Positions 7,214-16,831 of a DNA stretch of 64,000 nucleotides are shown here, piece after piece. The stretch covers positions 558,001-622,000 of the forward strand of contig NZ_JAGQEE010000002.1 in NCBI RefSeq assembly GCF_018304945.1. The letters are read 5' to 3'. Position 1 is the first letter of the stretch. Each line of letters begins with the position of its first letter. Made by a program: the position numbers and the translations under genes. The notes under the pieces are model-generated. The model had not been told where the DNA came from and did not search any database. It saw nothing but the letters and a program-made list of their open reading frames with translations. The stretch is from Collimonas humicola. GTDB taxonomy: Bacteria; Pseudomonadota; Gammaproteobacteria; Burkholderiales; Burkholderiaceae_D.

Positions 7214-8422
7214 TCATCCTTTCACGCAAATGACCTGGCGCAGCGTGTGCACCACCTCGACCAGGTCGGTCTGGTGCGCCATCACCTGGTCGATATCCTT
7301 GTAGGCCGCCGGGATCTCGTCGACCACGCCGCCGTCCTTGCGGCATTCGATGCCCTGGGTCTGGTCGGCCAGGTCGAAGCGGTTGAAGCGGCGCTTGGCT
7401 TCGCTGCGGCTCATGCGCCGTCCGGCGCCGTGGGAGCAGGAGCAGAACGAATCCGGATTGCCCTTGCCGCGCACGATATAGCTCTTGGCGCCCATGCTGC
7501 CGGGAATGATGCCCAGCTCACCCTCGCGCGCCGAGATCGCACCCTTGCGGGTGATGAACAGCTTTTCATTGCCGTGCATTTCCTGCGTCACATAGTTGTG
7601 ATGGCAGTTGATCGCTTCGCCGTCCAGCTTGAACGGCGGCAGCTGCTGGACCAGGACGTCGACAGCGCGCCGCATCATTTCGCGGCGGTTGATCAGGGCA
7701 TAGTCCTGCGCCCAGTCCACGGCGTCGACATAATCGTCGAACAGTGCCGATCCTTCGCTGAAGTAGGACAGGTCCTTGTCCGGCAGGTTGATGCGGTTGC
7801 GCGCCATATCCTTTTTTGCAGCCGAGATGAAATAGCGGCCGATCACATTGCCGATGCCGCGCGAGCCGGAGTGCAGCATGATCCAGACCCGTTGTTCTTC
7901 ATCCAGGCAGATTTCGATGAAGTGGTTGCCGCCGCCCAGCGTGCCGATCTGGCAGATCCAGGTCTGGGCGAACTTGTGCTGCATCTTCATGATGCCCTTG
8001 TGCCTGGCGACGATGCGGTCCAGGCGGTCGTTCAGCGGACGGCCGACGCGCGCATGGGCCGAACCGCGCACCTTGTCCCATTCGTGCTGCTCGAAGCCGA
8101 CCGGGATCGATGCTTCGATAGCGCTGCGCAGGCGCGCCAGGTTGTCCGGCAGCTGGCTGGCGGTGAGCGTGGTGCGCACCGCGTTCATGCCGCAGCCGAT
8201 ATCGACGCCGACCGCGGCCGGGATGATGGCGGCGCGCGTCGGAATCACGCTGCCGACGGTGGCGCCGATGCCGGCGTGGACATCCGGCATGGCCGCTACG
8301 TGCGGATGGACGATAGGGAGGCTGGCGATGTTCAGCAATTGCTGAAGCGCGCTGTGGTCGATATCGTCGGTAAATATGTGCACGGGCACCAGGCCCTTGT
8401 GCAAGCTCTGTTTGATTGGCAT
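7214..8422 (-). CDS. rtcB: RNA-splicing ligase RtcB (paralogue 1)
   Basis: RtcB joins RNA ends bearing 2',3'-cyclic or 3'-phosphate to 5'-OH ends, using GTP and Mn. This 402-residue copy shows the family landmarks: MPDVHAGIGATVGSV, VGVDIGCGMNAV with the metal-binding Cys, LGGGNHFIEI, HSGSRGIGN and SHGAGRRMSR, whose His331 corresponds to the guanylylated His337 of E. coli RtcB. I start it at the ATG at 8422 (MPIKQSLHKG); upstream in-frame codons run through a terminator-like hairpin and are not conserved in style. It has its own leader (8423-8700) and is followed 2 bp later by a small basic ORF. A second rtcB lies at 10737. Confidence 0.95.
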   Translation of the reverse strand: MPIKQSLHKGLVPVHIFTDDIDHSALQQLLNIASLPIVHPHVAAMPDVHAGIGATVGSVIPTRAAIIPAAVGVDIGCGMNAVRTTLTASQLPDNLARLRSAIEASIPVGFEQHEWDKVRGSAHARVGRPLNDRLDRIVARHKGIMKMQHKFAQTWICQIGTLGGGNHFIEICLDEEQRVWIMLHSGSRGIGNVIGRYFISAAKKDMARNRINLPDKDLSYFSEGSALFDDYVDAVDWAQDYALINRREMMRRAVDVLVQQLPPFKLDGEAINCHHNYVTQEMHGNEKLFITRKGAISAREGELGIIPGSMGAKSYIVRGKGNPDSFCSCSHGAGRRMSRSEAKRRFNRFDLADQTQGIECRKDGGVVDEIPAAYKDIDQVMAHQTDLVEVVHTLRQVICVKG

Positions 8423-8493
8423 AACGTTTTTCTTCGTGATGCCGGCGTCTTTGCCGCGGGCCGGCCATGCCGTGCCCGCAAGAAAACAAAAAC

Positions 8494-8518
8494 CCCGGCG
8501 AGTTTCCTCACCGGGGTT
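8494..8518 (-). terminator. Intrinsic terminator in the rtcB leader
   Basis: The minus strand reads an 11 bp GC-rich stem with a GAAA loop followed by GGGGTTTTTGTTTT. It could end transcripts from the HNH gene, act as an attenuator for rtcB, or both. Confidence 0.7.
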
Positions 8519-8582
8519 CTGGTTGGAACGACCGGCTCGGGTCGGCAATATCGCCGCAGACCCCGAGCAGTCATGCGCGGGG

Positions 8583-8783: not shown

Positions 8784-9356
8784 CTAGTTGAGTTCGCGCA
8801 TGCGGCTGTGCTTGGGCAAGCGCGCCGCCAGGTAGTCGTGCTGGTCGGCCAGGACGTTGCGGCCGCTCAGCAGATAGTGTTCGGCGCGGCATGGCACGTA
8901 CGGCACATACAGCAGCGGACGGAAACTTTCCAGCGCTTTGCTGCCTTTTTCCTGATTGCAGTCCTTGCACGCCGTGACGCAATTGGTCCAGGTATCCTTG
9001 CCGCCGCGCGAGCGCGCCAGCACGTGGTCGCGCGACAGTTCATTGTGCGGGAAACGGCCGCCGCAGTAGGCGCAGGTGTAGCGGTCGCGGCGGAACAGCA
9101 GATCGTTGTGATGGCCCAGCGGCAGTTCCATGTGCAGCATGCGCGCCATGATGGCGCTGCCGGCGATGGCGATGATGGGTTTGACGGCGATGCGGGACTG
9201 GATGCCGGCGCGGGAATAACCGCCGCGGAAAACGATGTCGCCGTCGCCGATTTCCCAAGCCACCTTCCCGCTCGCGTAATAGAGCACAGCGTCTTGCGGC
9301 GAAATCCAGTCAAACGGATTACCCGCGATATCGAGGGTCAGGATATGGGAGATCAT
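8784..9356 (-). CDS. HNH endonuclease family protein
   Basis: About 190 residues. The N-terminal 85 residues resemble the YxxW-type preface seen in many HNH proteins. The C-terminal half has CAYCGGRF, then LSRDHVLARSRGG with the HNH catalytic histidine, TNCVTACKDCN, and so a four-cysteine zinc site around the beta-beta-alpha fold. The start at 9356 is preferred because AAAGG lies 8 bp upstream; GTG at 9365 and ATG at 9362 are also possible. It sits between rtcA and the other rtcB on the same strand, so a role in nicking or trimming nucleic acid linked to RNA repair is possible, but its target (DNA or RNA) cannot be read. Confidence 0.85.
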   Translation of the reverse strand: MISHILTLDIAGNPFDWISPQDAVLYYASGKVAWEIGDGDIVFRGGYSRAGIQSRIAVKPIIAIAGSAIMARMLHMELPLGHHNDLLFRRDRYTCAYCGGRFPHNELSRDHVLARSRGGKDTWTNCVTACKDCNQEKGSKALESFRPLLYVPYVPCRAEHYLLSGRNVLADQHDYLAARLPKHSRMRELN

Positions 9357-9598
9357 TTGCATCACCTTTGCGGTTGATTATAACCAGCATTTTTGTGTTT
9401 CGTCCTTCGTTTGTTGCTTTTTGGCGTGAAGACTGGCGGTGCTGGCGGGGTGGCCTATCGGGAATGATGCGATATCGTCGGGGTCGCAGCCGCGCGCTTC
9501 AGCGCGCCAGCTACGGCTAAGCTAAAGCCGCCATTGAGATCTATATTGGGTGCGCCGGCCTGTTTGGAAAGAGGCGGCTGGTAAGTATTGCCGCAGCC

Positions 9599-9636: not shown

Positions 9637-10656
9637 TCATTTTGTTGCAATTTCGCAGACGCTGGACAGCCCTTGTTCTGCAAACGTGATCCTTACCGGC
9701 AAGAATTGTTCGATGACTTCGGCGTTGGTGAGCGCATGCTGTGACACGCAATCGACCGTAAACCGGCCGCTGCCCGCCAACGCCAGCGGCAACATGATCT
9801 GATCGGCCAAGTGTTCGCCGACCGCGGCGCCGGAGGCGATATATTGCCGTACCTGCGAAATTGCCTTTTTTGCAACCACTTCGGAGCGCACCATCTTCTC
9901 GCCGAACGCGCAAAACACTTCCGTCACATGCTGCGATTCCAGCGTCACCAGCAAGGCGTTGCCCGGCCCCTGGTCATGCGGCAAGCCGCGGATCGCCAGT
10001 TGCGCATCGTCCCAGCCCATCGCGGTCTTGACGCAAGCCAGCTCGCGCTTGGCGACGTCGGCCGGCACGCCGGCGATGAAACTCTCGGCATAACCGGCGA
10101 CGCGCTCGCCGCGGCTCATCAGTTCCAGCGGCTGCAGCTGCCGGCATGGCGACACTTTCGCCTCGATCTCGCCGCCGCCGGCGGGATAAAAGCCAAAACG
10201 TTTCAGTTCGATTTCCAGGTCCGCGCCCATGGCCGCCAGCACGCGGCCGTACGCGCGCTGCAGGAAATGGGCTGGCGGCGCCATCGCGTTATGCGTGCCG
10301 CCGGTGATCTTCACCACCGATGGCGCATCCGCATACAGCAAGGCCGGCAGCAGGGTTTGCAGCACCAGGGTGCAGCTGCCGGCGGTGCCGATGGCAAACT
10401 GGTAGGCGCCGCCTTTGATCTTGCCCGGCGTGAATTGCAGCGTTTGCGCGCCGACCGCCGCCGAACCGATATCGGCATTGCTGATCCCGGCGGCGGCTTG
10501 CACCGCCACCAGATGCTGCCGCATCAATCCAGGCTTGGGGCGGTTAGCCCGGATATTCACAATCCGGAACGGCTGTCCGGTAATCATCGACAAGGTCAGC
10601 GCGGTCCGCAAAACCTGGCCGCCGCCTTCCCCTGTTGCTCCATCTAGTTCAATCAT
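9637..10656 (-). CDS. rtcA: RNA 3'-terminal phosphate cyclase RtcA
   Basis: RtcA converts 3'-phosphate RNA ends to 2',3'-cyclic phosphates using ATP. The 339-residue product starts MIELDGATGEGGGQVLRTAL, the conserved RtcA opening, contains ANRPKPGL and THNAMAPP, and ends with HLADQIMLPLAL and a QHALTN segment whose His307 matches the adenylylated His309 of E. coli RtcA. Length is normal. It follows rtcB paralogue 2 by 80 bp on the same strand; the gap holds a perfect 9 bp hairpin. Confidence 0.95.
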   Translation of the reverse strand: MIELDGATGEGGGQVLRTALTLSMITGQPFRIVNIRANRPKPGLMRQHLVAVQAAAGISNADIGSAAVGAQTLQFTPGKIKGGAYQFAIGTAGSCTLVLQTLLPALLYADAPSVVKITGGTHNAMAPPAHFLQRAYGRVLAAMGADLEIELKRFGFYPAGGGEIEAKVSPCRQLQPLELMSRGERVAGYAESFIAGVPADVAKRELACVKTAMGWDDAQLAIRGLPHDQGPGNALLVTLESQHVTEVFCAFGEKMVRSEVVAKKAISQVRQYIASGAAVGEHLADQIMLPLALAGSGRFTVDCVSQHALTNAEVIEQFLPVRITFAEQGLSSVCEIATK

Positions 10657-10736: not shown

Positions 10737-11972
10737 TTAGCCTTTCACGCACACCACTTGTTTCAGGGTATGCACCACTTCCACCAGGGCGCGCTGCGCT
10801 TCCATCACCGCATCGATATCCTTGTAAGCCATCGGGATTTCGTCGATGACGTCGGCATCCTTACGGCATTCCACGCCCTGCGTCGCCTTGATCTGGTCGT
10901 CCAGCGTGAAACGCTTCTTGGCCTCGGTCCGGCTCATGGTGCGGCCGGCGCCGTGGCTGCAGCTGTGGAAGCTGTCGGCATCGCCTTTACCGCGGACGAT
11001 GAAGCTTTTCGCCCCCATCGAACCCGGAATGATCCCCAGTTCGCCTGCCCGCGCCGATACCGCGCCTTTGCGGGTCACCAGCACATCCTTGCCGAAGTGG
11101 TTTTCCTTCTGCACATAGTTGTGGTGGCAATTCACCGCTTCCACGTGTGTTTCGAAAGGCTTGCTGATCACCGACCGCACTGCTGCAATCAGGTTCTGCA
11201 TCATCACTTCCCGGTTCATGCGCGCGAATTTCTGCGCCCAGCTCACTGCCTCGATATAGTCGTCATAGTGCTGCGTGCCTTCCGGCAAATACGCCAGGTC
11301 CTGGTCCGGCAGGTTGATGAAATGGGTGCGCATGTCCTGTTTGGCCAGTTCGATGAAATGCGAGCCGATGGCGTTGCCCACGCCGCGCGAACCGGAGTGC
11401 AGCATGAACCAGACGGCGTTGCTCTCGTCCAGGCAGATTTCAACGAAGTGGTTGCCGGATCCCAACGTTCCAAGGTGCCGGTAGTTATTCGTATTCTTCA
11501 ACTTTGGCGTCTTCAGGCAAACCAGGTCGAATTCGTCCTTCAGCTGCGCCCAGGCGGCGTCCACCGGCGTCGGCGGGGTTTCCCACGAACCTTTGTCGCG
11601 TCCCTTGAAACCGCGCGTCTTCGGAGACATCCCGTGCGGAATGGCTTTTTCGATCGCGCTGCGCAAAGGGTGGAGATTGTCAGGCAGGTCGCGCGCATTC
11701 AAGGTGGTCTTGGCCGCCATCATGCCGCAGCCGATATCCACTCCCACCGCGGCAGGTATCACCGCTCCCAGGGTAGGAATCACGCTGCCGATGGTCGAAC
11801 CCTTGCCGACGTGGACGTCAGGCATCACAGCCAGGTGCTTGTAGATGAACGGCATCTTCGCGGTGTTGCTCAGCTGCTTGCGCGCCTCCGCTTCCACCGG
11901 TACGCCGCGGGTCCACATCTTGACGTGGCTTCCGCCTTCGACATTCATTACATCGTATTCTTCGTGTTTCAT
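10737..11972 (-). CDS. rtcB: RNA-splicing ligase RtcB (paralogue 2, next to the Y-RNA array)
   Basis: A 411-residue RtcB, close to the E. coli length, with MPDVHVGKGSTIGSV, VGVDIGCGMMAAK, LGSGNHFVEI, HSGSRGVGN and SHGAGRTMSR; His340 is the expected GMP-linked residue. It differs from paralogue 1 in its N-terminus (MKHEEYDVMNVEGG) and in an insertion around GFKGRDKGSWETPP. It lies in the rsr - Y-RNA - rtcB - rtcA order known from other RNA-repair operons and is probably driven by the sigma-54 promoter at 14233-14249. The ATG begins about 27 bp after the last Y-RNA element. Confidence 0.95.
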   Translation of the reverse strand: MKHEEYDVMNVEGGSHVKMWTRGVPVEAEARKQLSNTAKMPFIYKHLAVMPDVHVGKGSTIGSVIPTLGAVIPAAVGVDIGCGMMAAKTTLNARDLPDNLHPLRSAIEKAIPHGMSPKTRGFKGRDKGSWETPPTPVDAAWAQLKDEFDLVCLKTPKLKNTNNYRHLGTLGSGNHFVEICLDESNAVWFMLHSGSRGVGNAIGSHFIELAKQDMRTHFINLPDQDLAYLPEGTQHYDDYIEAVSWAQKFARMNREVMMQNLIAAVRSVISKPFETHVEAVNCHHNYVQKENHFGKDVLVTRKGAVSARAGELGIIPGSMGAKSFIVRGKGDADSFHSCSHGAGRTMSRTEAKKRFTLDDQIKATQGVECRKDADVIDEIPMAYKDIDAVMEAQRALVEVVHTLKQVVCVKG

Positions 11973-11998
11973 GATTTTCTTCTTTTAAAAATTAAGGG

Positions 11999-12119
11999 GA
12001 TGACAAGTGATGATGAAATGTTTTACTGAGCTATCGGCTGGCGCCGACCCGGGACTTGAACCGGGGACCTTCGAAGCAAGCTTCGCTGCTCTATCCATGT
12101 AATTCCATCGGCATTCATC
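11999..12119 (-). ncRNA. Y-RNA-like RNA 4 with permuted tRNA mimic opened in the D-loop
   Basis: Reading the minus strand: outer stem GATGA/TCATC, the shared core (AATGC on one side, CACTTG on the other), an inner 8 bp stem GATGGAAT/ATTTCATC, then TACAT and a tRNA-like domain. That domain runs GGATA-GAGC (second half of a D-arm), a CGAAG-CTTG-CTTCG hairpin in the anticodon-arm place, a T-arm (CCCGG, TTCAAGTC, CCGGG), an acceptor-like stem TCGGC/GCCGA capped by GCCA, then TA-GCTC-AGT (first half of a D-arm). Joined head to tail this is a small cloverleaf, so it is a circularly permuted tRNA mimic. It lies between element 3 and rtcB. Confidence 0.75.
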
Positions 12120-12129
12120 AAAAAAAGTC

Positions 12130-12270
12130 GGCGACAAGGGGTGGTGAAACGGTGTGCGGTTGCCCGCACGGCGCTCTTTCGGTTGAGCTACGGCGACGCT
12201 GCTTTGCCGCCGACGGGATTTGAACCCGTATCTCCCCAGTTTGAATGATGTAGTTCCACCAGCATTCGCC
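12130..12270 (-). ncRNA. Y-RNA-like RNA 3 (YrlA-type) with permuted tRNA mimic opened in the variable region
   Basis: Outer stem GGCGA/TCGCC, the shared core, inner stem GGTGGAAC/GTTTCACC, then TACAT and a complete permuted cloverleaf: T-arm ACGGG-TTCAAAT-CCCGT (12229-12213), acceptor 3' strand CGGCGGC (12212-12206), an AAAGCAGC cap, acceptor 5' strand GTCGCCG (12197-12191, 7 pairs with one G-U), TA, D-arm GCTC-AACCGAAA-GAGC, and a GTGCGG-GCAA-CCGCAC hairpin where the anticodon arm would be. The order matches YrlA-type bacterial Y RNAs, in which the Ro-binding stem joins a tRNA-like module. A seven-base T run follows the outer stem and may release the 3' end. Confidence 0.82.
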
Positions 12271-12296
12271 TAAAACCTGCTGCTGCGCGTATTTAA

Positions 12297-12398
12297 ATCC
12301 CGACAAGAGTTGACAAGACATTCTGCCAAAGCTGTTCAGCCTGGCAGGCCGGATTCGCACCGGCTATTCTGAATGTAGTCTTGCCTGCATTCGGGGAT
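12297..12398 (-). ncRNA. Y-RNA-like RNA 2 with T-arm and capped acceptor only
   Basis: Outer stem CCCGA/TCGGG, the shared core (AATGC; CTCTTG), inner stem GGCAAGAC/GTCTTGTC, TACAT, then a T-arm-like hairpin GCCGG-TGCGAAT-CCGGC stacked directly on a CTGCCA/TGGCAG stem whose cap is itself a GCTG-AA-CAGC hairpin. No D-arm or anticodon arm can be drawn. It looks like a reduced tRNA mimic keeping the T-arm/acceptor half. Confidence 0.68.
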
Positions 12399-12414
12399 GC
12401 GCACCATTGAGCGA

Positions 12415-12479
12415 CAGTATGACAAGAGGTCGATGTGACGAGACATTTATCGGATGTAATCACACCGGTATTCATACTG
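12415..12479 (-). ncRNA. Y-RNA-like RNA 1, short form without tRNA mimic
   Basis: A 65-base element: outer stem CAGTATGA/TCATACTG, internal loop AATACC against GACCTCTTG, inner stem GGTGTGAT/GTCACATC, and an apical ACAT/ATGT hairpin. It has the shared core of the other three elements but no tRNA-like part, so it resembles the minimal Ro-binding half of a Y RNA. It is the first element after rsr. Confidence 0.65.
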
Positions 12480-12496
12480 CGCTCAAAACCTGTACT

Positions 12497-12572: not shown

Positions 12573-14126
12573 TTAAATAGAGATGGATTGAATTTCACCC
12601 ACCCACTGTGCAGCACTCAGCTGACCGGCGGCAAAGTCGGCGACAATCCGGAATACATCGTCAGAAAAGCCGCCGATGTTCAAGATGTCTTCCCGTTCCG
12701 CCGCCTGCGTCGTGCCGTAAGGCATGACATCGATGCACACCAGTCTGGCGTTCGGGTTGCGCTGCTTGAATGTTTCCCATTCGCGCATCGTTGCCGTTGC
12801 ACCGCGCCGCGCCGCATCGACCCAGGATTCGTTGTCCGACACAAAAATCACCAGATCCGCCTTCGCCTTGTCCTTGTTCAGCCTTGCCAGCGGTGCGCTG
12901 CAATTGGTGCCGCCGCCGCGGATGGCCGCCAGCTTGCTGGCATTTGTCATCACCGAATCGCGCGGATTCAGTTTGCAGGCGACTACATCAACCTCAAACG
13001 GCAGCACGACGCTGCCCGGATTCTTGCGCAACATCGCAGCAGCCATCAATGCCGCAATATCGATGCAGCGGATGGCCGATGTGGCAGAACCACGGTAACC
13101 GGTCGCTGGCGACTGCATGGAACCCGATACGTCAGGACAAACTACTACTTTTCCAGCAATTTCCGGAACGTTGTTCAGCGCAATTTCCATCGCGTCCTGC
13201 AATGCTTCAATAATTTCCACGGGGACCTCTTCATTCGCCGCTCCGCAGGCGGCCATCAACTGATACGGAAACACTCGGGCCTTGGCTATCGCTTCGGCGT
13301 CGCGCAGCTTTTCCGCGATGACTGCTGTCATGCCCGGCAGCGCATACACGCCGTGGCGTGCAAACGTATTCAGGTTCATGCGCAACATCTGCCATCCGGC
13401 CTGGCGCGCTATCTGTGCCCATTCAACATCTGTCAGTTCCAGCGCTGTCAGCATCTGGAACGGCACATTCGGCAAAGCTTGCGTGCGGTCGGCTTTGTAG
13501 GCTTCGAACGCTTTCAATAAAGGCGGCAGCGCTTCAGCGTCATAGGCCTTGCCGATCAGCCATGCAAAAAATGCTTCGCGCCAGGCTTCCACCGGCTTGG
13601 GATGGACCATCTTCACCACGTCGGCCAGCGACGGCGCGTTACCGACTGCGGCCGCCAGCAATTCCTTTTCCGAGGCCTGGTTCAGCCACGTCTGCACCAG
13701 TTTCTTCGGACGGGTGCCCAGCGATTTGCGGCCGACCGCGCCGGAGCGCAGGATCTGCACAAAATTCCGCAGCATCTTGCCGTTATCGATGACGCGCTTG
13801 AAAGTGCGCGGCAGCTCGGGCGCTCCTTTGGCGGCCAGGATGGCCGTCAACAGCGCTGGCATGTCCTTCATGTAGCCGCGTTCGCGGCAATACACGGCGG
13901 TCTGCGCAATGAAGCATGCATCGATGTCCTGGCACAGGTCCAAGACCGTTTCCAGCTGTGCTTCGGCGCTGGTGTAAAAGGTAGTATTCAGGCAGCCGGT
14001 AGCGGCGTACTGCGCCAGCCGGTGGCGCGGCGACATTGCATAGGCCGCAGCGCCAGCAGCATTGATTGCATTCGCTGGCGGCAGGAATTTGCCTTTCAGG
14101 CTTTGGAACAATTGGGTATTGGCCAT
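12573..14126 (-). CDS. rsr: Rsr, Ro60/TROVE-domain RNA-binding protein
   Basis: A 517-residue bacterial Ro60 orthologue. The N-terminal two thirds is a HEAT-like TROVE ring that in this family binds Y RNAs outside and misfolded RNA ends in its pore. The C-terminal von Willebrand A part has the MIDAS motif DVSGSM near residue 331, GGGTNCSAPL and VIFVSDNESW. I prefer the ATG at 14126 over 14132 because GAGGA then has normal spacing. It is first in the operon, 24 bp-spaced from a sigma-54 promoter region and followed by four Y-RNA-like RNAs that are its expected partners. Confidence 0.93.
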   Translation of the reverse strand: MANTQLFQSLKGKFLPPANAINAAGAAAYAMSPRHRLAQYAATGCLNTTFYTSAEAQLETVLDLCQDIDACFIAQTAVYCRERGYMKDMPALLTAILAAKGAPELPRTFKRVIDNGKMLRNFVQILRSGAVGRKSLGTRPKKLVQTWLNQASEKELLAAAVGNAPSLADVVKMVHPKPVEAWREAFFAWLIGKAYDAEALPPLLKAFEAYKADRTQALPNVPFQMLTALELTDVEWAQIARQAGWQMLRMNLNTFARHGVYALPGMTAVIAEKLRDAEAIAKARVFPYQLMAACGAANEEVPVEIIEALQDAMEIALNNVPEIAGKVVVCPDVSGSMQSPATGYRGSATSAIRCIDIAALMAAAMLRKNPGSVVLPFEVDVVACKLNPRDSVMTNASKLAAIRGGGTNCSAPLARLNKDKAKADLVIFVSDNESWVDAARRGATATMREWETFKQRNPNARLVCIDVMPYGTTQAAEREDILNIGGFSDDVFRIVADFAAGQLSAAQWVGEIQSISI

Positions 14127-14232
14127 TTTCATTTCCTCTTTTGTTGATTGCGTTGAGCCGCTAGGGGGCTTGTTCGCGTCGTCTGTTGCTGCGGCAATTT
14201 CTATTTATCTGCCGCTTCCATGCCTCCTTTAT

Positions 14233-14249
14233 TGCAACGACTGTGCCAA
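14233..14249 (-). promoter_or_regulatory. Sigma-54 promoter of the rsr operon
   Basis: The minus strand reads TTGGCACAGTCGTTGCA, matching the -24 (TGGCAC) and -12 (TTGC) elements at correct spacing. It lies about 107 bp upstream of the rsr start. RtcR, encoded divergently, carries a GAFTGA-type sigma-54 activator domain, so the pair is self-consistent. The AT-rich stretch 14270-14389 between this promoter and rtcR is a plausible place for RtcR binding. Confidence 0.88.
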
Positions 14250-14389: not shown

Positions 14390-16000
14390 ATGAAAAAGAA
14401 GCGCATCGTCGTCATCGGCTTCGTCGGCACCCAGCTCGATAACGGTTCAGGCAGCGGTCGCTGGGAAAAATGGCGGCCGACGGTGGCGCTGACGCAGCAT
14501 GAAGAGATGGTGGTGGAGCGCTTCGAGCTGCTGTACAGCGGCAAGTATGAAAGCCTGGTGCATCAGGTGCGGCGCGATATCGCGTCGGTCTCGCCGGAAA
14601 CCGAGGTGATCCCGCGCCAGCTGCCGATCGTCGATCCCTGGGATTTTGAAGATGTCTACGGTAGCGTGTTCGACTTCGCCAAGAGCTACCCCTTCGATAC
14701 CGACAACGAGGATTACTGGATCCACATCACCACCGGCTCGCACGTGGTGCAGATCTGCATGTTCCTGATGACTGAAGCGCACTACTTCCCGGGGCGCCTG
14801 CTGCAGTCGTCGCCGCCGCGCCGGCAGACCGTCGGCGATCCGGGCAGCTATACGTTGATCGATCTCGACCTTTCCCGCTATGACCAGATCGCGCAGCGCT
14901 TCTCGCGCGAGCAGGAGGAAGGCGTGGCCTTCCTGAAATCGGGCATTGCCACCCGCAATGCGCGCTTCAATACGATGATCGATGAAATCGAGCGGGTCGC
15001 CATCAAATCCAGGGCGCCCATGCTGCTGATGGGGCCGACCGGCGCCGGCAAGTCGTTTCTGGCGCGGCGCGTGTTCGAGCTGAAGAAGGCGCGCCATCAG
15101 CTGGACGGCAAATTCGTCGAACTCAATTGCGCGACGCTGCATGGCGACGGCGCCGGCTCGACCTTGTTCGGCCACATCAAGGGCGCCTTCACCGGCGCCG
15201 CGGCGGATCGTCCCGGGTTGCTGCGCAGCGCGCACAAGGGCTTGCTGTTCCTGGACGAAATCGGCGAACTCGGCCTGGACGAACAAGCCATGCTGCTGAA
15301 GGCGGTCGAGGAAAAGCGCTTCCTGCCGGTGGGTGGCGATAACGAGGTGCAAAGCGATTTCCAGCTGATCGCCGGCACCAACCGCGATCTGTCGCGCGAA
15401 GTGGTGGCCGGCCGCTTCCGCGAGGACCTGTATGCGCGCATCAATTTGTGGACCTATGAATTGCCGGGCCTGGTGGACCGCTCCGAAGACGTGGAGCCGA
15501 ACATCGACTACCTGCTGGCGCAGTTCGGCGCCGAGAATGGCCAGATGGTCAGGCTCAACAAGGAGGCGCGCGATGTTTATATGCGCTTCGCCATGTCGCC
15601 GGATGCTTTGTGGATGGGGAATTTCAGGGATTTGTCGGCGTCGGTGACGCGCATGGCGACCCTGGCTGACGCCGGCCGCATTACCGATGCCATCGCAGCG
15701 GACGAAATCCGCCGCCTGCAGCGGCTATGGCGTCCCTACGCCGAGCAACCGGCGGCAGCCGGCGCCGTCGATCTCAGCGAAGTGCTGGAACGGGATCAGA
15801 TAGAACAGATGGACCTGTTCGATGTCATGCAGCTGCAAGCGGTGATCGATATCTGCCGCCGCTCGAAATCGATGTCGGATGCCGGCCGCAAATTGTTTGC
15901 CGCATCGCGCAGCGCGAAAGAAAAGCCGAACGATGCGGACCGCCTCAAAAAATACCTGGCCAAATTCGGATTGGGCTGGGAAGCGGTGGCCGGCAGATAG
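14390..16000 (+). CDS. rtcR: RtcR, sigma-54-dependent activator of the RNA-repair operon
   Basis: 536 residues. The N-terminal about 185 residues form the RtcR sensor, known as a CARF-like domain thought to bind RNA-derived ligands (VVIGFVGTQLDNG, HITTGSHV). The AAA+ domain has Walker A GPTGAGKS near 214, the sigma-54 contact motif GAFTGA near 265, and LFLDEIGELGLD as Walker B. The C-terminus has a helix-turn-helix region (SMSDAGRKLFAASR). It is divergent from rsr across 263 bp that hold the sigma-54 promoter. Confidence 0.95.
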   Translation: MKKKRIVVIGFVGTQLDNGSGSGRWEKWRPTVALTQHEEMVVERFELLYSGKYESLVHQVRRDIASVSPETEVIPRQLPIVDPWDFEDVYGSVFDFAKSYPFDTDNEDYWIHITTGSHVVQICMFLMTEAHYFPGRLLQSSPPRRQTVGDPGSYTLIDLDLSRYDQIAQRFSREQEEGVAFLKSGIATRNARFNTMIDEIERVAIKSRAPMLLMGPTGAGKSFLARRVFELKKARHQLDGKFVELNCATLHGDGAGSTLFGHIKGAFTGAAADRPGLLRSAHKGLLFLDEIGELGLDEQAMLLKAVEEKRFLPVGGDNEVQSDFQLIAGTNRDLSREVVAGRFREDLYARINLWTYELPGLVDRSEDVEPNIDYLLAQFGAENGQMVRLNKEARDVYMRFAMSPDALWMGNFRDLSASVTRMATLADAGRITDAIAADEIRRLQRLWRPYAEQPAAAGAVDLSEVLERDQIEQMDLFDVMQLQAVIDICRRSKSMSDAGRKLFAASRSAKEKPNDADRLKKYLAKFGLGWEAVAGR

Positions 16001-16018: not shown

Positions 16019-16831
16019 CTATCGCTGGGCCAGCACGGTGTCACGCAGCAGGCGGTCCAGCACGGAAAAATCCTGCTGTTCCGGCTGCAGCGGCGGGGAA
16101 TCGTGGCTGAATCGCTCCAGCGCATGTTCAATGAACTGGTTGATCAGCGGCATGGCTGGCGCATGTTCCGACTCTTTCGCCCGCCGCTTGATGACCAGCA
16201 ATTCTGCAATGGCATCCTTGAGCGCGGCGTCGCTAATGATGGCGTCGACCATATCCTGGAAGCGCATCGGCACGGCGCCGCGCTGCTGTTCTATCCAGAT
16301 GCAGGCGAGCAAGGGCCGCAGCACGTATAAATACTTCTTCAGCCGCACCATCTCTCCTTGCAGATATTCGCGGTAATTTTTCCTGGCCATGTGCAGGTAA
16401 TGATGGAAAGAGCGGTCCGGCCGGCTGACCTGCTCGGCTGCCGCCCGGATCGTGCCCAGGAATGCAGGATCGGCGCGGTAGACGACCGGCGAAGACAGCC
16501 ATTCCACCAGGGTGGCGTTGCCATTGCGCAGCAGCCCGAGCGCCTTGCGCAGGTCCCAGCCGCTGACGTCGTAGACTTCGCTGATCGGCAGTTCAATCAC
16601 GTCCCGTCCCGGGAACACAGTCAGATACCAGTCCGGCTGGTGGGCATAGATGAAGCGCACGTCGTAGTCGCTGTCGGGTGAGGCAAAGCCCCAGCCGCGG
16701 CTGCCCGATTCGCAGGCGAACAGGATTTTCACGGCATGCTCTGCTTCGACTTGAGCAAGCGTGGCGTTGATCTGGGTGCGCACATCGGGGTCTATGGGAT
16801 GTTCGGTGTCGTGATCGTAGGTGGCGGACAT
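16019..16831 (-). CDS. RlaP-type nucleotidyltransferase (Pol-beta fold, COG3541)
   Basis: 270 residues with the polymerase-beta signature GSRGWGFASPDSDYDVRF at 43-60; GSR and the Asp55/Asp57 pair are the nucleotide- and metal-binding residues. LRNGNATLVEWLSSPVVY and the KKYLYVLRPLLA helix fit the family now linked to RNA repair (RlaP). The reaction is not established from sequence; nucleotide addition to RNA ends is the usual proposal. It converges on rtcR with 18 bp between the stops, and so belongs to the same locus though on its own transcript. Confidence 0.82.
   Translation of the reverse strand: MSATYDHDTEHPIDPDVRTQINATLAQVEAEHAVKILFACESGSRGWGFASPDSDYDVRFIYAHQPDWYLTVFPGRDVIELPISEVYDVSGWDLRKALGLLRNGNATLVEWLSSPVVYRADPAFLGTIRAAAEQVSRPDRSFHHYLHMARKNYREYLQGEMVRLKKYLYVLRPLLACIWIEQQRGAVPMRFQDMVDAIISDAALKDAIAELLVIKRRAKESEHAPAMPLINQFIEHALERFSHDSPPLQPEQQDFSVLDRLLRDTVLAQR

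Follow-up and report, generated by a model that had tools for sequence, protein, structure and literature searches.

The window analysed here is a stretch of 64,000 nucleotides from Collimonas humicola, in which the minus strand encodes the Ro60 homologue Rsr (519 aa; 12573..14132; Pfam vWA_Ro60 6.1e-19, TROVE 2.7e-5), an RtcB RNA ligase directly downstream of an array of Y RNAs (10737..11972; Pfam RtcB 1.6e-132) and the RNA 3'-phosphate cyclase RtcA (9637..10656; Pfam RTC 8.1e-79). The activator RtcR is encoded divergently on the plus strand (14390..16000; Pfam RtcR 1.3e-82, Sigma54_activat 5.1e-49), and the gap between rtcR and rsr contains a sigma-54 type promoter upstream of rsr, TGGCACAGTCGTTGC (14234..14248, minus strand). 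This site is the single match in the whole window to the pattern TGGCAC-N5-TTGC, for which 0.28 matches are expected per window; when the pattern was loosened but one G kept fixed, it matched at three different positions in the window and missed the rsr promoter site. No terminator-like sites were found between the four elements of the array. The only match on the minus strand (12581-12604) runs into the end of rsr. The array region as a whole contains 3 such sites vs 3.3 expected from shuffles, which is no excess. Among the matches listed, from which very near records may have been left out, the closest named Rsr is that of Collimonas sp. OK412 (86% identity).

As read from the sequence, the arrangement is therefore rsr, Y RNAs, rtcB and rtcA behind a sigma-54 type promoter, with a divergent rtcR. 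The rsr-yrlBA-rtcBA operon of Salmonella has the same gene order, a sigma-54 promoter and a divergent rtcR (PMC9879122; PMC7790460), but it carries two Y RNAs where the window carries four and one relative (L173) carries eleven, and the window adds a second RtcB, an HNH protein and RlaP nearby. The second RtcB (7214-8548, minus strand) is 54% identical to the first over 393 positions, the HNH protein is encoded at 8784-9365 (minus strand) and RlaP, of the RNA repair polymerase-beta family, at 16019-16831 (minus strand), so that several genes linked to RNA repair cluster at this locus.

The initial annotation described four minus-strand elements between rsr and rtcB that share a two-stem core, and this description holds: the stems, the internal loops and TACAT after each inner 5' arm are all present. 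The inner stems were said to differ and yet to pair; pairing was confirmed in all four, with the qualification that some of the inner-stem pairs are G-U. Covariation among the stems of the four elements is likewise real, with stronger evidence coming from relatives. In place of a covariance model, a descriptor was used that combines the outer stem, an AATRC-type loop, the inner stem and a TTG-type loop, with a threshold score of at least 16; in the window it places the elements, a few flanking bases included, at 12414-12480, 12295-12399, 12126-12274 and 11995-12123. At this threshold, 80.6 kb of DNA downstream of rsr from 93 loci contains 238 elements, while two dinucleotide-shuffled copies of the same 80.6 kb contain a total of 1 match and 139.5 kb of coding DNA from rsr contains none, which bears out the expectation of covarying homologues beside other rsr genes. 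As a positive control, two contigs labelled Salmonella and Escherichia phage gave three elements each at scores above 20; these contigs look like pieces of a bacterial rsr operon. Folding z-scores of elements 1 to 4 are -3.17, -2.92, -3.35 and -1.61, element 4 alone not standing out.

A permissive Rfam search returned, in array order, YrlB, YrlA, YrlA and YrlA, all of them below the gathering score, and there is no Rfam match above the curated threshold in the whole window. Against a gathering score of 69 bits for YrlA (RF02553), elements 3, 2 and 4 reach 43.7, 36.7 and 27.7 bits, and against 97 bits for YrlB (RF02565), element 1 reaches 22.1 bits. These sub-threshold matches, together with the Salmonella-like order, point to Y RNAs of a known kind that have diverged from the curated models. 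All four elements lie between the genes for Rsr and RtcB and have a conserved, covarying stem with internal loops, as bacterial Y RNAs do, and on this evidence they can be identified as Y RNAs of the YrlB/YrlA kind in which one conserved core stem bears different heads. With the gathering scores as cut-offs, the Rfam models for YrlA and YrlB leave the four elements of the window undetected. Elsewhere in the genome no further copy of YrlA stands out beside the three in the array (the next two matches have E 0.26 and 0.93), and 13 of 14 control genomes gave matches with E of 1 or less. ARAGORN found no tRNA gene in the window and the Rfam tRNA score was 22.1 bits vs 29, so that nothing in it is recognised as a functional tRNA. 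Separately, 222 of 428 elements have TTTT upstream of their outer stem at a distance of 14 nt or less, compared with 1460 of 18060 background windows taken from these regions. The motif may be a signal for processing the operon transcript by cleavage.

Four Y RNAs in a row had been considered unusual, and this view does not survive a wider comparison. The extended set comprises 428 elements at 154 loci and is weighted to the nearest relatives of the query; some genomes with G handles and some named loci are the same genome, and the 154 loci represent 128 distinct rsr sequences. For the counts per locus, L002 was replaced by L173 (a longer stretch of the same genome), and the fragments L014, L015 and L177-L181, the repeat genome L243 and loci with fewer than 60 bases downstream of rsr were skipped. 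No element was found at 12 loci, one at 16, two at 42, three at 42, four at 17, five at 21, six at 3 and eleven at one (L173). With 42 of the 154 loci carrying at least four elements, an array of four is commonplace for this operon in the genomes examined. The 2014 paper that named YrlA is said to give each species at least one Y RNA with a tRNA-like domain, by which several Y RNAs per locus were already known. Some loci have features of their own. At the Rsr locus of Myxococcus phage Mx1 (L216), no Y RNA element reaches the score-16 threshold (best 13.0); its Rsr homologue is 48.5% identical, and a tRNA-Gly and a peptidyl-tRNA hydrolase gene lie nearby. L018 encodes a small treble-clef protein (Pfam PF13451, the protein read by eye) inside the Y RNA array, and L016 has, by eye, a similar-looking reading frame between its Y RNA elements. 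In G778, G842, G908, G1266 and G1327, rsr was matched in two pieces, with a stop inside one of the G842 pieces, and we regard these as broken or misassembled copies.

The shared core had been described as bearing different effector domains. The heads do differ, but the long ones are cut-down and permuted versions of tRNA and not unrelated domains, and the first reading was incomplete in that it missed two features, the D loop that is split in element 4 and the anticodon arm found in the family of element 3. When 361 elements were classed by head, 116 had a D arm, T arm and acceptor, 92 were of the short YrlB type, 70 had a T arm and acceptor only (as window element 2), 50 lacked a T arm, 21 (17 unique) had a D loop split by the Rsr stem (as window element 4), 9 had a T arm without an acceptor, and 3 were of other kinds. 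Element 1 (12414..12480, minus strand; YrlB E 0.089; descriptor score 20.8) is YrlB-like, with the Rsr-binding core, a short hairpin head, ACAT-CCGATAA-ATGT, and no T arm; it resembles Salmonella yrlB in being the first element after rsr and in having a short head (PMC9879122), although its Rfam score is far from the curated one. The idea that YrlB heads are anticodon loops was rejected, their loop sizes varying by eye. Element 2 (12297..12398, minus strand; YrlA E 2.6e-6) is a short YrlA-type RNA with a T arm and an acceptor-like hairpin.

That YrlA is a circularly permuted tRNA mimic is already known (PMC11472068). The array shares with RF02553 the core, T arm, capped acceptor hairpin and D arm (the arms of YrlA are described in PMC8394870), and elements 3 and 4 have the last three in permuted order. 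It differs from YrlA in that the Rfam consensus has no hairpin where the relatives of element 3 bear an anticodon arm, element 4 is opened in the D loop and not in the anticodon stem, and element 2 lacks both D and anticodon arms. Viral and tmRNA mimics are likewise RNA domains that imitate tRNA (PMC11472068), but here an array of differently permuted mimics is carried on one protein-binding stem, some of them with anticodon loops. It is the heads that are new, while the kind of Y RNA and the YrlA permutation are not. The excerpts of open-licence literature among the matches listed, a body that does not include the key papers of 2014, 2018 and 2020, describe neither an anticodon arm nor a split D loop in a Y RNA, and no array with more than two members.

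Restoring the order of parts found in tRNA improves the alignment of the heads to 83 real tRNAs, taken from two genomes only, in 110 of 112 unique heads; the mean alignment score is 36.1 un-permuted, 22.0 as written and 20.2 shuffled. An assignment of tRNA isotype to each head by alignment of the whole body was dropped for the window elements, since many margins over the next isotype are small (28.3 vs 26.4 for element 3 and 33.9 vs 33.5 for element 4). The largest margins belong to two leucine-like heads with a long variable arm, L004_2 (39.8 vs 29.9) and L173_2 (40.8 vs 30.5), and a few other heads reach margins of 7-9. Among 210 acceptor caps that were parsed, 90 are 4 nt long, and 65 of these are GCAA, GAAA, GTAA or GCGA. 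YrlA is not known to have a free CCA end; its structure from Salmonella is 6CU1.

Element 4 (11999..12119, minus strand; YrlA E 0.001) is a YrlA-type RNA with a split D loop, through which the Rsr stem enters, as judged from the consensus fold of an alignment (A2) of 17 unique split-D-loop heads. The 3' strand of its D stem, GAGC (12088..12091, minus strand), pairs across the Rsr stem with the 5' strand GCTC (12028..12031, minus strand), and RNAalifold predicts this stem unprompted from the 17 sequences; it is nearly invariant among them, and so provides no covariation. The evidence of covariation comes from two other hairpins. At the anticodon position lies CGAAG-CTTG-CTTCG (12072..12085, minus strand), 92.9% paired in A2 with double changes at all five pairs, whose CTTG cap leaves no anticodon loop. 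The acceptor-like hairpin TCGGC-GCCA-GCCGA (12034..12047, minus strand) is 92.8% paired with double changes at 4 of 5 pairs, and the T arm (12048..12065, minus strand) has an 8-nt loop, TTCAAGTC, where most relatives have 7 nt. Folded as a single sequence, element 4 has a minimum-energy structure without the D stem that is 1.7 kcal/mol lower than the structure proposed here. Elements with a split D loop are the last of their array in 21 of 21 cases, two of them being the sole element (19 of 19 in arrays of at least two). L005_3, L071_3, L077_3 and L046_2, which lie outside A2, look by eye like leucine-type heads with a long variable arm. The acceptor cap GCCA of element 4 (12039-12042, minus strand) resembles a discriminator base and CCA joined to a 5' end.

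Element 3 (12130..12270, minus strand; YrlA E 2.4e-8; fold z -3.35) is a circularly permuted tRNA of the YrlA type, with its parts in the order anticodon-like arm, T arm, acceptor with linker, D arm and an extra GC-rich hairpin; the Rsr stem splits the anticodon stem within its 5' strand. The 2018 structure paper on YrlA reportedly places the Rsr stem at the anticodon stem, which fits element 3 and does not fit element 4, where the D loop is opened. The anticodon-like hairpin TCA-TTCAAAC-TGG (12236..12248, minus strand) was located with a rule requiring T33 and has homologues in relatives; it has T33, the triplet CAA (12241-12243, minus strand) and one U-G pair. Read as a full arm, it would comprise C27-G43, C28-G42, U29-G41, C30-G40 and A31-U39 around the loop TTCAAAC, the two lower pairs being possible pairs. 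In the Rfam YrlA alignment, a 13-nt insertion overlaps this part of the element.

Element 3 is itself a weak example of the anticodon-arm family. Besides the U-G pair, its minimum-energy fold pairs the anticodon segment otherwise and lies 4.8 kcal/mol below the proposed structure, and the automatic placement of arms took another hairpin in this element. It is also one of the two exceptions to the gain from un-permuting (28.3 un-permuted vs 28.5 as written), and its loop has no exact counterpart among the real tRNA loops used as reference. Congeneric relatives vary at this loop, with TTCAAGC and TTAAACC.

The case for an anticodon arm rests on the relatives of element 3, in which the arm with a 5-bp stem, 7-nt loop, U33 and purine 37 is found in a stronger form than in the window copy. 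Between the inner Rsr stem and the T arm of 50 unique segments, a 3-bp Watson-Crick stem with a 7-nt loop was counted 45 times vs 9.4 expected, the next most enriched loop size in the same segments being 8 nt (12 vs 8.4 expected). Of the 41 segments that have such a 7-nt loop, 36 carry T at position 33 and 37 carry A at position 37, with positions 34-36 variable. Covariation was assessed in 54 unique sequences from 72 elements. These were drawn from the 116 elements with a D arm by requiring 21-26 nt ahead of the T arm, a choice made by segment length and not by the hairpin. In this set the 3-bp stem reaches 96.9% pairing and shows double changes at each of its three pairs; for one of these pairs, letters are present on both sides in only 24 sequences. 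The lower half of the stem was counted in 61 sequences, those of 81 unique ones with the 3-bp, 7-nt-loop hairpin, and in 52 of them both 27-43 and 28-42 are standard pairs, vs 27.4 (maximum 36) with shuffled partners. The variable loop has 5 nt in 45 of the same 61, with G46 in 45/45 and C48 in 42/45.

It could be argued that the 7-nt-loop hairpin is an artefact of chance or alignment and that the segment is an unstructured linker, given that RNAalifold does not predict the 3-bp stem unprompted and that minimum-energy folds include it in only 21 of 74 unique elements. The enrichment of one loop size, the covariation of both half-stems and the G46/C48 variable loop all speak against this, and we consider it extremely improbable. 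Most relatives of element 3 keep a whole, covarying anticodon arm of the tRNA type, and the Rsr stem is inserted in the 5' strand of this arm between positions 28 and 29. Versions with the 3-bp arm occur in records of, for example, Variovorax, Undibacterium, Massilia, Budvicia and Pragia, and 2-bp versions in records of Desulfuromonas and Acidobacteria. Enterobacterial elements with a long segment (L049, L066, L072, L074) have the loop in only 2 of 7 cases, and by eye the loop is missing from the YrlA of the two phage-labelled control contigs.

Within this conserved arm the triplet changes fast. Among 13 Variovorax RNAs the mean pairwise difference is 0.53 at the triplet positions vs 0.045 per column elsewhere. 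On an rsr tree of 45 genomes, which took only elements with T33 and a head starting ACAG, one per distinct rsr, at least 27 changes fall on the triplet (14 kinds), more than on any other 3-nt window, the mean being 8.5. Shuffled labels give 31.8 triplet changes (minimum 28), and the lower observed number indicates that some inheritance remains. Linker windows on the same tree reach 23 changes, so that relaxed constraint is conceivable and may in part account for the rate. Three of 60 arrays with an anticodon-type element bear two or three of them, each time with different triplets.

The loops are also more like those of real tRNAs than the composition of their columns would give. Ten of 33 distinct loops with T33 and a purine at 37 equal a real tRNA loop vs 4.0 after permutation of columns, a number reached in 1 of 5000 permutations; a smaller first set of loops gave 9 of 30 vs 3.9 expected, with 32 of 2000 as high. 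Of 16 triplets without A34, 15 are anticodons in the reference genomes, a match that is weak on its own because 39 of the 48 possible anticodons already occur there. A34 itself is in excess, being found in 11 of 33 distinct loops vs 1 of 45 real loops, and reading A34 as G34 turns 7 of 8 A34 triplets into real anticodons, including versions for Asn, Asp and His. The tRNAs for these three amino acids carry queuosine.

A conserved T33 and purine 37 beside free positions 34-36 is what would be seen if the heads were sinks or guides for enzymes that modify or mature tRNA, such as Dus and TruB, with U33 and A37 as recognition elements and the triplet drifting. YrlA is a substrate of DusA and TruB (PMC8394870). 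Pure drift would however leave the excess of exact real loops over the column-permuted expectation unexplained, and we judge this account to be distinctly unlikely.

In Salmonella, anticodon loops are cut by a nuclease after DNA damage, and RtcR binds 5' tRNA halves with a 2',3'-cyclic phosphate and turns on rsr-yrlBA-rtcBA; tRNA decay and competitive inhibition of the nuclease are the roles suggested by the authors for Rsr and YrlA (PMC7790460). We tentatively favour, short of calling it probable, a reading in which the array would supply tRNA stand-ins or baits, held by Rsr, in response to tRNA cleavage and from a repair operon switched by RtcR. Cuts in the anticodon loops of tRNAs would lead RtcR to switch the operon on; Rsr would hold stand-ins that keep tRNA-acting enzymes, chiefly anticodon-loop nucleases, engaged on their surfaces, and RtcA and RtcB would meanwhile reseal the cuts. 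A Y RNA cut in its anticodon-like loop would keep both halves joined via the long Rsr stem, and as it stays in one piece, RtcB could reseal it as well. A change of triplet would retune the bait to the nuclease met. Heads without the loop, such as that of element 4, could hold enzymes that read the body of the tRNA without being cut. In its more specific form, which we put forward with some reserve, YrlA RNAs would be Ro-tethered, permuted tRNAs with a swappable anticodon loop, a set of baits against anticodon nucleases issued from the RtcR operon, accompanied by uncuttable bodies opened in the D loop. Elements 1, 2 and 4 have no anticodon loop, and the bait idea covers them less directly. It is also weakened by the Salmonella study, in which YrlA fragments were not detected after induction of the SOS-induced nuclease (PMC7790460), so that YrlA was not cut by this enzyme.

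That same result weighs on the proposal that the Y RNAs are sacrificial sensors, in which anticodon nucleases would cut the loop and the Y RNA, ending in a cyclic phosphate, would feed RtcR and amplify the response, though here it must be considered that enterobacterial YrlAs are mostly without the loop (2 of 7 have it). The ligand of RtcR, a 5' tRNA half with a 2',3'-cyclic phosphate (PMC7790460), and the resemblance of the anticodon-like loop to a nuclease target are in keeping with such a sensor. If the array is read from the rsr promoter, however, its RNAs would be made only after RtcR is on, and we regard the proposal as quite improbable.

The main rival to the bait reading is that the array encodes ordinary tethers, in which each Y RNA links Rsr with a ring nuclease such as PNPase, and the tRNA-like heads dock or select structured RNA, including broken tRNA, for degradation. 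Such a complex of Rsr, Y RNA and PNPase (RYPER) is known from D. radiodurans (PMC7790460), and both Rsr and YrlA of Salmonella bind PNPase (PMC9879122; PMC8394870). As in Deinococcus, the Y RNAs of the window would tether Rsr to an effector; the difference is that three of the four window elements have tRNA-like heads and that a partnership with PNPase is putative here. A tether of this kind predicts neither a conserved anticodon arm with a fast-changing triplet that resembles real loops nor a panel of differently permuted tRNAs, and we think it rather unlikely as an account of the array, if a serious one.

Whichever role is preferred, a single RNA family has arrived at two or more ways of opening the tRNA fold, in the anticodon stem and in the D loop, for joining it to a protein-binding stem. 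The role of Ro60 and Y RNAs beside RtcB and RtcA is a question posed by the Salmonella work (PMC7790460), and a fast-changing triplet on a conserved scaffold makes it directly testable: a Y RNA whose triplet is matched to a nuclease should, on the bait reading, be bound or cut by that nuclease, or protect against it.
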